From positions 1 through 64,000 of the forward strand of contig JAFIHG010000029.1 of NCBI GenBank assembly GCA_017848795.1: a DNA stretch of 64,000 bases, given 5' to 3'. The notes beneath the pieces are model-generated. The model was not told the origin of the DNA, did no database searches, and saw only the letters and a program-made list of their open reading frames with translations. The stretch is from Candidatus Nanopelagicales bacterium. Its GTDB lineage: Bacteria > Actinomycetota > Actinomycetes > S36-B12 > CAIYMF01. Of this stretch, positions 24,810 through 56,138 are shown piece after piece; position 1 is the first letter of the stretch; each line of letters starts with the position of its first letter. The position numbers and the translations under genes were made by a program.

Positions 24810-25546
24810 GGGGTGCCTCCGGACGGGACGGGGTCGGACGCGAGGGTGCCGTGCAGCAGCAGATCGGCGATCCGCGCCGCGGACAGCGGTGCCCCGTCGG
24901 TGATCGCCGGGTGGCTGGCGGCGAACGTCACGAGGCGGACCAGCTCGGCGGTCTGCTCCGGCGGATAGCGCAGCGCTGCGGCATCCGGGCGCAGCAGCTC
25001 GGCGATCTGGTCGAGCAGCTGCTGATGCTGCGGACGGCGGCGACTGCTCCCGTGCTCGCCGGACTGGCAGGGCTCGCCGGACTGGCCGTGCTCGCCGGAC
25101 TGGCCGTGCTCGCCGGGCCTGCTGGGTCCGCCGGCCGTGCGGTGGTCGTCGGCCGTGCCTTGGTCCTCGCGGTGGTCGTCGGGCGGGCGGTGCAGCCCGA
25201 GCGCGGTCATCAGGGAGAACACGTCGGTCAGCCGCTCGCGCAGGATCTCGACGATGGCAGCGATGCGCGCCGGCAGCGGTAGCGCGGGGTCGAGGCCGGC
25301 CAGCCGTTCGGCCGCGCGCGTCGAGTGCAGCTCATGCTCCACCACGGCCGCGACGAGGGAGGCCTTGTCCCCGAAGACGTAGAACACCGTCCCTTCGGAG
25401 ACGCCCGCCGCCTGCGCCACCGCGCGGGTGCTCACGGCGCGGCCGTACGCCCGTACCAGCGGCGTCGCGACACGGACGAGCTGGCGCCGGCGCTCCTCGA
25501 GGGGGAGCGGGTCGGCGCGGCGGCGGGAGGTCGTGTCAGTTGTCAT
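24803..25546 (-). CDS. TetR-family transcriptional regulator
   Basis: A 247-residue TetR protein. Residues 15-65 form the helix-turn-helix (RRQLVRVATPLVRAYGRAVSTRAVAQAAGVS split, then EGTVFYVFGDKASLVAAVV). The ligand domain follows, interrupted at about 123-170 by a hydrophilic insert with the repeat GEHGQS-GEHGQS-GEPCQS-GEHGSS. Without the insert the length is normal for the family. It overlaps the first ABC gene and heads the operon; an operator dyad lies in its promoter, so it represses the exporter. The insert is probably a disordered loop created by minisatellite expansion. Confidence 0.93.
   Translation of the reverse strand: MTTDTTSRRRADPLPLEERRRQLVRVATPLVRAYGRAVSTRAVAQAAGVSEGTVFYVFGDKASLVAAVVEHELHSTRAAERLAGLDPALPLPARIAAIVEILRERLTDVFSLMTALGLHRPPDDHREDQGTADDHRTAGGPSRPGEHGQSGEHGQSGEPCQSGEHGSSRRRPQHQQLLDQIAELLRPDAAALRYPPEQTAELVRLVTFAASHPAITDGAPLSAARIADLLLHGTLASDPVPSGGTPC
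25051..25116. repeat. 18-bp minisatellite inside the tetR gene
   Basis: About 3.5 tandem copies of an 18-base unit GTGCTCGCCGGACTGGCC (plus strand), in frame with the TetR gene and encoding the SGEHGQ repeat. Copies differ at one or two bases. It probably arose by replication slippage. Confidence 0.85.
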
Positions 25547-25585: not shown

Positions 25586-25666
25586 CCCGGTTTTCTCGCG
25601 GCGTACGAGCGGGCCGACCGGGCCGACGGGCGGGGGCGCCTCGTGCCGGCAGGGCAGGATGGGCGG

Positions 25667-26059
25667 GTGCAGCAGTCGGGTGGCGCGGTACGGGTCGACC
25701 AGTGGCTCTGGGCCGCCCGGTTCTTCAAGACGCGCTCGCAGGCGACCGCGGCGATCGCGGCAGGGCACGTCGAGCGGGACGGCCAGACGCTCAAGCCGGG
25801 GCGGCCCGTGACCCCGGGGGACCGGTTGCGCATCACCGTCGGGCAGCAGCGGTTCGTCATCGACGTACGCGCCACCGCGACGAAGCGCGGTTCGGCGGCC
25901 GTGGCTGCCCTCCTGTACGAGGAGACGCCCGAGAGCCGCGCCGAGCGGGAGCGCGCCGCGGAGCTGCGCCGGCTCGCCGCTCCGCTGGGCGCCGACCTGG
26001 GCCGGCGCCCGACCAAGCGCGACCGCCGCCGCATCGACGCCATGCGCCGCCCCACCTGA
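25667..26059 (+). CDS. S4-domain RNA-binding protein (Hsp15/HslR-like)
   Basis: A 130-residue protein with the S4 fold at 8-70: VRVDQWLWAARFFKTRSQATAAIAAGHVERDGQ (in parts), then LKPGRPVTPGDRLRIT. This is the pattern of Hsp15, which binds stalled 50S subunits carrying nascent chains. The basic C-terminal tail (RRPTKRDRRRIDAMRRPT) fits RNA contact. The GTG at 25667 was chosen because homology begins within six residues. The last four codons form part of a 79-bp repeat that recurs 1.66 kb away. Confidence 0.9.
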   Translation: MQQSGGAVRVDQWLWAARFFKTRSQATAAIAAGHVERDGQTLKPGRPVTPGDRLRITVGQQRFVIDVRATATKRGSAAVAALLYEETPESRAERERAAELRRLAAPLGADLGRRPTKRDRRRIDAMRRPT

Positions 26060-26124
26060 CGCGTGTCCCTGCTCGAATCGTCGCTAACTCCGTGAGTTAG
26101 CGACGATTCGAGCAGGGACGCGGG
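26046..26124. repeat. 79-bp direct repeat, left copy, containing palindrome P2 copy A
   Basis: Bases 26046-26124 are identical to 27708-27786. The repeat includes the last codons and stop of the S4 gene (GCCGCCCCACCTGA) followed by a long palindrome: 26-base arms GTCCCTGCTCGAATCGTC... at 26065-26090 and 26094-26119, perfectly paired around a 3-base loop. It lies between convergent genes and can serve as a bidirectional terminator. Confidence 0.92.
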
Positions 26125-26128
26125 TGCG

Positions 26129-27673
26129 TCAGCGGCAGCGCCAGACGAAGTCGTCGGCCCGGTCCGTGCCGCCAGTGGCCGGGTCGGTGAGGTACGTCGG
26201 CGGGCCGTCAGCGACCAGGTCGGAGTAGAAACTGTCGCGCACCCCGGTGTAACGAAGGACCGTCACCCAGGAGTCCGCGGCGACCTGCCCGTAGCCCATT
26301 GCGCGGGCTTGATAGTAGAGCCAGCTCTGCGCGACTCTCGAGGACGGGAACTCGTCGTCGAGCAGGTCGCCGAGCCCGCTGTTGTCGAGCGCGATGTACT
26401 GCGGACAGGTCACTGGTCGCCTGACTGCTCCGAACAGGGAGACCGTGGTGCGATCGGTCAACTGTGGCGCCAGCGTGTTGCTGGCCGCCACGGTGGCACC
26501 GTCGGGGATCGCGGCGAGGATACCGCGCGCTGATGCGACGGCCGCGCCGCGTACCAGCTGTGGTGGTGCCACCAGGTCGCGGAAGCCGAAGAACGGCAGC
26601 AGGACCACCGTCACCGCGAGACTGGCGCGGTACGCGCGCCGTCTCGCGGCTGGCTTCGTCCGGATCAGTGCATCGACGAAAGCGGCGAACACCACCGGTA
26701 CCAGGACGGCGCTGTAGTGATACCCGGTGCCGTGGTACGCGGGGTTGTCGGACAGGAATCGCCACGCCAGTGTCGGCACTGCGACGAGCAGCAACGGTGA
26801 GCGGAGGGCCAGGAAGCCTGTCGGAACCAGCAGCACGATGACGGTCCAGAGCGCAGGCAGGCTCGCGGCTCCCGCCACCATCTCGGTCAAGGTCCGCTCC
26901 GTCGCCTGCCCGCCATACGGGTACCGGCCATCGGCGTTGAACCTCGGTATCAGGAGTGTGACCGTCAGAACGGTGGCCGCGATGCCAGCGGCTGCCGTGA
27001 GTAGTCCGGTTCGCCGTGCACCGCGATGCGCCACCAGGACGCCGATCACCATCACAGTGATGCCGAGGTCCTCCTTCACCAGCACCAACGGCAGTGCCCA
27101 AAGGCATGCCGAGACAAGCCGGCCCCGGCCAAGTGCAGTCAGCGAAAACGCCAGGAACGGCACGGCGAACGCGACTTCATGGAAGTCGAACGCGACTGCT
27201 TGCGCGACTCCCCAGGACGCCCCGATGCCGATGCCGATAGCCAGGGCAGCACGCTCGCCGAACGCTTGTTGCGCCCACGCGGTGATTGGTGCAACGGAGA
27301 GTGCGAGCAGTACGGCTTGGGCGAGCAGGAGGGTGACTGCGTGCGGGAAGACATGGTAGACGGGCCCGAGGGTCGCGAGGATCGGCGAGAAGTGATCGCC
27401 CAGCAGATTGAAGGCGTCACCCTTGAGGGGGACTACCGGGCCTCGTCCCTCTGCGTAGCCGCGGACTGCCTGTTCGAAGATCCCCAGGTCGAAAGCTCGT
27501 GTCTGCATCATGTCGTGGCGGCGCACGGAGAGGACCGCGTAGATCGCGGTGAAGCACGCCGTGAGCAGCCATGGAAGAAGCCGTGGTGGCAGCGTCCGTT
27601 CATCCGCGCGTTGCCTGCGGCCGTGGACCGGTGCGAGAACGGATCGCCGGGCCAGACGCGTACTGCTCGCCAT
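26129..27673 (-). CDS. DUF2079 multi-pass membrane protein
   Basis: A 514-residue integral membrane protein of family DUF2079, with about nine to ten hydrophobic segments, beginning near LLPWLLTACFTAIYAVLSV. The conserved family signature lies at RAFDLGIFEQAVRGYAEGRGP, followed by LLGDHFSPIL. DUF2079 resembles GT-C glycosyltransferases; the acidic luminal loop with D-x-G-I-F fits that, but function is unproved. Its base use looks visibly less GC-rich than its neighbours. It stands alone, enclosed by 79-bp perfect direct repeats, which points to insertion or exchange of this gene. Confidence 0.88.
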   Translation of the reverse strand: MASSTRLARRSVLAPVHGRRQRADERTLPPRLLPWLLTACFTAIYAVLSVRRHDMMQTRAFDLGIFEQAVRGYAEGRGPVVPLKGDAFNLLGDHFSPILATLGPVYHVFPHAVTLLLAQAVLLALSVAPITAWAQQAFGERAALAIGIGIGASWGVAQAVAFDFHEVAFAVPFLAFSLTALGRGRLVSACLWALPLVLVKEDLGITVMVIGVLVAHRGARRTGLLTAAAGIAATVLTVTLLIPRFNADGRYPYGGQATERTLTEMVAGAASLPALWTVIVLLVPTGFLALRSPLLLVAVPTLAWRFLSDNPAYHGTGYHYSAVLVPVVFAAFVDALIRTKPAARRRAYRASLAVTVVLLPFFGFRDLVAPPQLVRGAAVASARGILAAIPDGATVAASNTLAPQLTDRTTVSLFGAVRRPVTCPQYIALDNSGLGDLLDDEFPSSRVAQSWLYYQARAMGYGQVAADSWVTVLRYTGVRDSFYSDLVADGPPTYLTDPATGGTDRADDFVWRCR

Positions 27674-27707
27674 GGGCGCCGAGCCTATTGTCGTTGGGGG
27701 CCCGGCG

Positions 27708-27786
27708 GCCGCCCCACCTGACGCGTGTCCCTGCTCGAATCGTCGCTAACTCCGTGAGTTAGCGACGATTCGAGCAGGGACGCGGG
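27708..27786. repeat. 79-bp direct repeat, right copy, containing palindrome P2 copy B
   Basis: Identical to 26046-26124 over all 79 bases, spaced by 1662 bp. The left 13 bases are a second copy of the 3' end of the S4 gene, although no S4 gene is here. The palindrome arms are at 27727-27752 and 27756-27781. It lies just after the stop of the VOC gene and upstream of the DUF2079 start. Confidence 0.92.
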
Positions 27787-27790
27787 GGCC

Positions 27791-28267
27791 TCAGGGGGTG
27801 GCGGCGGCGAGGAGGGCGTCGAGGTCGCGGCGCAGCAGCTGCTCGATGTCGGGTCCGACCTGCGCCAGCTGTACGAGCACCCCGCCGTTGTCGCGCGGGT
27901 GGACGAACACCTCCGACCAGTGCTCGCCGTACGACAGTCCGAAGGTAGGGATGCCGCGGGCGGTGAGGGTGTCGAGCGCCGCCGCCAGGTCCGGCACCCG
28001 GAACGTGATGTGGTGCAGCCCGCCGCGGCCCTCGGTCGCAGCGAAGAACTTGTCGAAGAAGGTGGATCCGGCGGTGGGCGCCATCAGCTCGAGCTTGCCG
28101 TTCGGCAGCGCCAGGGTGAGGACGACCGCGCCGATGTCGAGCACCTCGCCGTGCGAGAACCGCCCGCCGAGGGTGCCGGAGTAGAACGCCAGCAGGTCGG
28201 GCAGCGACGGCCCCGCGATCGCGACGTGGTCGTACGTCGCGTCGATGCCCTCCAGCAGCTCGCTCAT
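27791..28267 (-). CDS. VOC-family protein, methylmalonyl-CoA epimerase-like
   Basis: A 158-residue vicinal-oxygen-chelate protein with two beta-alpha-beta-beta-beta modules. Metal-ligand positions fit: His in DATYDHVAIAGP, Glu in KLELMAP, His in GGLHHITFRV, and Glu-like end VLVQLAQ, where the usual terminal ligand Glu appears as Gln. Methylmalonyl-CoA epimerases share the HVAIAV...FY pattern. With the fourth ligand altered, epimerase activity is uncertain and another VOC role is possible. It lies 25 bases after fbiB on the same strand and may share its transcript. Confidence 0.78.
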   Translation of the reverse strand: MSELLEGIDATYDHVAIAGPSLPDLLAFYSGTLGGRFSHGEVLDIGAVVLTLALPNGKLELMAPTAGSTFFDKFFAATEGRGGLHHITFRVPDLAAALDTLTARGIPTFGLSYGEHWSEVFVHPRDNGGVLVQLAQVGPDIEQLLRRDLDALLAAATP

Positions 28268-43435: not shown

Positions 43436-43449
43436 CGCCTCAACCTTCC

Positions 43450-43513
43450 GCGTGTCCCTGCTCGAATCGTCGCTAACTCACGCAGTTAACGACGATTCGA
43501 GCAGGGACACGCG
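43450..43513. repeat. Palindrome P2, copy C
   Basis: 28-base arms CGTGTCCCTGCTCGAATCGT... at 43451-43478 and 43484-43511, one mismatch (G-U compatible), 5-base loop. It lies between two genes of the same direction, so it could end the manB operon. Confidence 0.9.
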
Positions 43514-49733: not shown

Positions 49734-49759
49734 ACCGCCCAGTCTCCCCGACCCCACCC

Positions 49760-49820
49760 CGTGTCCCTGCGCGAGATGTCGTCAACTCGCCCAGTTGGCG
49801 ACATCTCGAGCAGGGACACG
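49760..49820. repeat. Palindrome P2, copy D
   Basis: 27-base arms (GTGTCCCTGC, then GAGATGTCG and CAACT) at 49761-49787 and 49793-49819 with two mismatches and a 5-base loop. The inner stem differs from copies A-C but the changes compensate each other. It lies between two divergent starts, where a terminator is not needed. Confidence 0.9.
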
Positions 49821-49867
49821 GGCAGGTAGCCTCGCCCGGGCTGGGGGCGAGCCGCCGGGAGGTGTAC

Positions 49868-56041: not shown

Positions 56042-56060
56042 CTACCCCACCCCCAAATCC

Positions 56061-56123
56061 GCGTGTCCCTGCTCGAAACGTCGTCAACTGCGCGAGTTGA
56101 CGACGTTTCGAGCAGGGACACGG
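56061..56123. repeat. Palindrome P2, copy E
   Basis: Perfect 28-base arms (CGTGTCCCTGCTCGAAACGT, then CGTCAACT) at 56062-56089 and 56095-56122 around a 5-base loop. It splits the MoxR and DUF58 genes, which read the same way. The inner stem AAACGTCGTCAACT differs from copy A (AATCGTCGCTAACT) with both sides changed together. Confidence 0.92.
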
Positions 56124-56138
56124 GCAGGTGGGGGGCGG

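Follow-up and report, generated by a model that had tools for sequence, protein, structure and literature searches.

Gene-end palindromes in a Candidatus Nanopelagicales genome and the duplication of one copy around a DUF2079 gene

REP sequences and REPINs are dispersed, hairpin-capable palindromes that form genome-specific families (the GTAG and CGTC families, PMC3733652; REPINs, PMC3116915). They are extragenic, lie mainly between convergent and tandem genes and mostly less than 20 bp from 3' ends (PMC3733652), and some supply or abut stop codons. Classical families are spread by RAYT, a Y1 tyrosine transposase. In high-GC Streptomyces, terminators are long, stable hairpins poor in U residues (TERMITe atlas, PMC12207403). 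In the Neisseriaceae, DNA uptake sequences form dialects that differ by lineage (PMC3630211), and inverted pairs of uptake sequences have been reported as terminator hairpins (PMC2267715). Integrative elements flanked by att sites have direct repeats that carry a gene 3' end, with occupied and empty loci.

The DNA analyzed here, referred to as the window, is a stretch of 64,000 nucleotides from a Candidatus Nanopelagicales bacterium (contig JAFIHG010000029.1, positions 1 to 64,000). A preliminary description had reported that two 79-bp stretches are identical, that the left one holds the last codons and stop of an S4-domain gene, that the right one duplicates those codons where no S4 gene exists, and that a single membrane gene is enclosed, and comparison within the window bore out all of this. 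The repeats, at 26046..26124 and 27708..27786, match base for base. The S4-domain gene (25658..26059, + strand; PF01479, E 1.3e-12) has an orthologue at 66% identity in a congener, G001, and its final 14 nt, including the stop codon, form the left end of the left repeat (26046-26059). The same 14 nt of S4 tail recur at 27708-27721. Each repeat has as its core a near-perfect palindrome of 65 bp that reads CSCGYGTCCCTGCTCGAAWCGTCGYYAACTC-loop-GAGTTRRCGACGWTTCGAGCAGGGACRCGSG. The left palindrome (26060..26124), recognized by alignment, covariation and RNA fold, has a 55-bp GT..AC core at 26065-26119, and the right one (27722..27786), recognized by gene context and RNA fold, lies directly past the stop of a VOC/glyoxalase-family gene (27791..28267, - strand; PF13669, E 1e-13). 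The G001 orthologue of this VOC gene adjoins S4, making it the original convergent partner of S4. Between the repeats are 1,583 bp, with one gene that encodes a DUF2079 multi-pass membrane protein (26129..27673, - strand; PF09852, E 2.4e-78). Tandem repeats of 9/18 bp (GCTCGCCGGACTGGCCGT) lie within a TetR-family regulator gene at 25032-25175 of the window.

Synteny around the locus is conserved in G001, where the gene order is ABC-ABC-TetR-S4, then VOC-FbiB-CofD-FO synthase, with about 66-78% protein identity to this genome at the nearest genes. In G001, S4 (+) and VOC (-) directly adjoin with their stops about 30 nt apart, and the junction holds neither DUF2079 nor a palindrome; a DUF2079 homologue is found elsewhere in that genome. 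Because the congener has S4 and VOC adjacent, with no DUF2079 gene and no repeat, the gene was most likely inserted at the S4/VOC junction in this lineage. An empty junction with a single 79-bp copy had been proposed as a check in relatives; G001 supplies the junction without DUF2079 but not the single copy. The gene had also been described as less GC-rich. All ten other genes measured have a GC3 of 0.92-0.96, whereas this one has 0.79, and no palindrome-adjoining gene has a codon score below its 0.076. Its total GC of 0.672 is not extreme by itself, being matched by that of an ABC transporter gene close by. A donor search returned only homologues 37-39% identical, two of them in Aeromicrobium, and a distant paralogue is present in this genome (L091, G000:C21:67086-68432, where G000 denotes this genome). 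The palindromes showed no general link to foreign genes, the median codon score of 101 neighboring genes being normal.

The palindrome belongs to a family with at least 63 near-identical copies in the 3.4-Mb assembly, nearly all single; this total is a lower bound and counts a copy interrupted by an insertion sequence and another located at the end of a contig. Sequence matches placed further copies in the window at 43449..43513, 49758..49822 (with variant arms GAGATGTCG/CGACATCTC) and 56060..56124. Fifty-eight copies align without gaps. Their length is fixed, their outer positions vary little or not at all in a set first collected by its conserved outer arms, their inner positions vary, and the loop has four freely varying positions. 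The ends read CSCGY/RCGSG, and the consensus is CSCGYGTCCC..GGGACRCGSG. Perfectly symmetric 24-nt arms are present in only 24 of the 58 copies, and base pairing is maintained by two-sided changes at a level above shuffled and slid controls. As RNA, the left copy is predicted to fold at -68.1 kcal/mol for 90 nt (z -9.9), and window copies with flanks (90-97 nt) at -68 to -75 kcal/mol. Rfam gave no match at the gathering threshold within the window. We rejected integron attC cassettes, as the consensus has no RYYYAAC/GTTRRRY core sites and the copies are dispersed rather than clustered.

One copy contains an IS1595/ISXO2-type insertion sequence (PF12762, PF12760; L054 3078-4271, G000:C7:13577-14770) with terminal repeats AGGGCTATCCATCTGAG, flanked by an 8-bp target duplication that lies within the palindrome. 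Because it has its own terminal repeats and its target duplication falls inside the palindrome, this insertion sequence is a passenger, and we rejected it as the mobilizer of the family. Two contigs end inside a palindrome and overlap there (L065 3001-3040, the end of G000:C21, and L052 1-50, the start of C36); the assembly therefore breaks at these sites, and C21 and C36 probably join.

When all copy pairs were compared, zero mismatches in 65 bp together with a 14-nt identical outer flank occurred in the DUF2079 pair alone; the second-longest identical outer flank was 11 nt. The chance expectation for identical 65-mers with such a flank is about 1e-8 over all pairs when columns are taken as independent, and about 5e-6, by our estimate, when based on the three identical 65-mer pairs observed in the genome. 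The repeat pair arose by duplication of one copy. Since the shared flank contains native S4 codons, the copy with the S4 tail was the one duplicated, during or after insertion.

The preliminary description had the gene entering at a palindromic 3' end as integrative elements do. Insertion and the duplicated S4 tail are supported from that proposal, but the att-site interpretation is not. On that interpretation the 79-bp repeats would be attL and attR, with the S4 3' end and the palindrome together serving as the attachment site, and a trans-acting integrase would move the 1.6-kb element. Such an element would account for a gene flanked by identical repeats, for the gene end restored by one of them and for the empty locus in a congener. 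We nevertheless consider it rather improbable: the insert encodes DUF2079 only, with no integrase (as had been noted), excisionase or other recombinase, the core of the repeat is a dispersed palindrome whose other copies are mostly single and beside ordinary genes, and no other pair carries the duplicated-flank signature. No direct-repeat excess was seen at any boundary tested, and on this absence of target-site duplication we also rejected a transposon or MITE.

The copies are placed at gene ends. By a simple home-made codon-based gene caller, 33 of the 58 lie between tandem, 21 between convergent and 4 between divergent gene pairs, and a gene 3' end is within 30 nt in 45. Most of these ends are 6-20 nt from the palindrome and none is 0-5 nt away; where the distance is 6 nt, the stop codon directly abuts the 65-bp element. 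At tandem junctions, 23 copies are closer to the upstream stop and 3 to the downstream start (p 9e-5). A relative that carries its own version of the palindrome, G002, has the same arrangement, with 25 of 32 copies no more than 30 nt from a gene 3' end and 16 stop-side versus 3 start-side copies at tandem junctions (p 0.004). Genes bearing the hairpin are a small minority of all genes. No U-tract follows the hairpin in the copies read, where G-rich sequence is found instead, and no canonical terminator-like sites were detected in the 20-40 kb part of the window.

A stable hairpin shortly past the stop, with few or no U residues and with covariation, is a feature that the palindromes share with actinobacterial intrinsic terminators. 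They differ in having no downstream U-tract, the mark of an intrinsic terminator, and in being near-identical at dozens of loci and fixed in length across genera, neither of which applies to ordinary terminators. We suggest that they are probably bidirectional transcript ends without a U-tract, or mRNA 3' hairpins; this role is the most likely one because the spacing past stops is tight on transcribed strands, the hairpin covaries and the element is symmetric. The palindromes could instead be sites for a DNA-binding protein, used in chromosome organization or in the manner of uptake sequences, with gene ends merely tolerating long palindromes. Outer arms that are nearly invariant around variable inner positions in the 58 copies would be explained equally well by protein binding, and a length that stays at 55-56 bp across genomes and a sequence turnover like that of uptake dialects (PMC3630211) are compatible with it. 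We regard this alternative as doubtful, since a spacing of 6-20 nt to stops on the transcribed side would be superfluous for a DNA site and covariation favors a hairpin.

A classical REP/REPIN family spread by RAYT would likewise be dispersed mainly between convergent and tandem genes near 3' ends (PMC3733652). However, a search with PF01797, which gave matches in five control genomes, found no RAYT in this genome or in G001, G002, G008, G011, G013 or G153, so that the partner is absent from every palindrome carrier tested. Length and terminal tags differ as well: the element is a 65-bp near-perfect palindrome with a fixed core of 55-56 bp and no GTAG tag, and it has neither the short stem/loop format nor the CGTC terminal tag of CGTC-REPs. 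We therefore hold a RAYT-driven family to be very improbable.

We searched for the palindrome in other genomes. A DNA similarity search of 60 relatives found no true copies, and the single weak match, in G018, is not a palindrome. The exact outer-arm pattern had no match among 84,980 species, a set from which this genome itself may have been omitted, and none in phages or plasmids; it finds nothing elsewhere because the arm sequence differs in other genomes. A covariance model built from this genome detected palindromes with a different sequence in G011, G013, G001, G002 and G015, and a mixed model gave 79 matches in G002, 40 in G008, 37 in G013, 17 in G015, 11 in G153 and 2 in G001, for about half as many sites because both strands are reported. 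G011 has 19 sites. Among 297 genomes drawn from the class, matches at 1e-6 were confined to four, this one included, with E-values that are rough, coming from home-made models.

Each carrier thus has its own dialect of the palindrome, found in G002, G008, G011, G013, G015, G001 and G153, the last from another family of the class. Examples are GTCCCTGCTCGAAWCGTCG in this genome, GTCACTGGTGRAACGGTCG in G002, GTAACAGGTCNAAYGGTCG in G011, GTYACTGATCAAAGGGTYG in G013 and GTCCCTGACGAAGTGGTCG in G153. The GT-to-AC core is 55 bp long across dialects and 56 in G008 and G011, and a cross-dialect alignment shows strong covariation. Common descent of the dialects is likely rather than proven, because only a skeleton (GTNNC.G, GTCG) and the fixed length are in common. 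One palindrome of a second type (GTTACTGCCCGAA...) occurs in each of G002 (L219 2939-2994) and G011 (L146 2481-2537); both resemble the G008 dialect, and the main dialect of their host genomes is different. G002 also has a palindrome just upstream of its S4 orthologue rather than at the 3' end (L221 4740-4794, G002:C33). DNA uptake sequences are similarly genome-wide repeats with a lineage-specific sequence, but the palindromes here are far longer, always form inverted pairs and number in the dozens. Uptake sequences occur in very large numbers per genome.

Some orthologous junctions hold palindromes of differing dialects in different genomes. These are L011 of this genome and L210 of G002, L015 of this genome and L183 of G008, and, between relatives, L219 of G002 and L186 of G008, L222 of G002 and L237 of G013, and L204 of G002 and L167 of G011. 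An SCP_3 gene is flanked by palindromes on both sides in this genome (L014) and in G002 (L209), in differing dialects, and its 3' flank palindrome is also present in G008 (L175). Of six G008 sites examined, three are also sites in this genome or in G002; from 62 + 33 sites and an assumed 2,500 junctions, we estimate that about 0.2 would coincide by chance. These comparisons suggest that palindrome sites can persist while their sequence is replaced in concert. Repeated insertion at favored places could also explain the sites common to genomes. Some orthologous junctions in G001 have no palindrome.

The SCP_3 gene bears on a further explanation, in which the DUF2079 gene arrived on a composite mobile cassette bounded by the two palindromes. 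A second gene lies between two copies, and the copies show some clustering, with 6 gaps shorter than 2 kb versus 2.2 expected (p 0.02); both would agree with such cassettes. The SCP_3 gene, however, is conserved and flanked by palindromes of a different dialect in another genus, so its unit is not a recent cassette; there is no target-site duplication, and at the DUF2079 locus the duplicated flank sits within the insert, on the side of the right copy. We judge a composite cassette to be quite improbable.

The reading that we favor, with moderate confidence, is a REP-like family of gene-end hairpins without RAYT, at one copy of which the DUF2079 gene entered, duplicating that copy. Each palindrome could fold into a hairpin of about 30 bp in transcripts from either strand. 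The ancestral S4/VOC convergent junction would have carried one copy; on entry of the DUF2079 gene, this resident palindrome and 14 nt of the S4 end would have been duplicated, most simply in one illegitimate event (break repair or template switch) or one homologous event. As an outcome, each of the three genes, S4, DUF2079 and VOC, would still have a hairpin at its end. Related genomes would have kept this type of element while its sequence was homogenized into a genome-specific dialect. Beyond this, we tentatively raise the possibility of a new class of actinobacterial gene-end palindromes, fixed in length and evolving in dialects. Their sites would be retained between genera while a copying or recognition system other than RAYT rewrites the sequence at dozens of loci together, and through this system the sites would also become hotspots of gene gain, as for DUF2079.

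Transcription termination in high-GC bacteria is poorly understood, and the palindromes may be a bidirectional 3'-end signal in these organisms that works without U residues. They can also mark sites of gene insertion, as the DUF2079 case shows. If the dialect picture holds, these genomes would provide a natural experiment on the rewriting of one short sequence across dozens of unlinked loci, a rewriting that would work without a known transposase and would point to a recognition factor.
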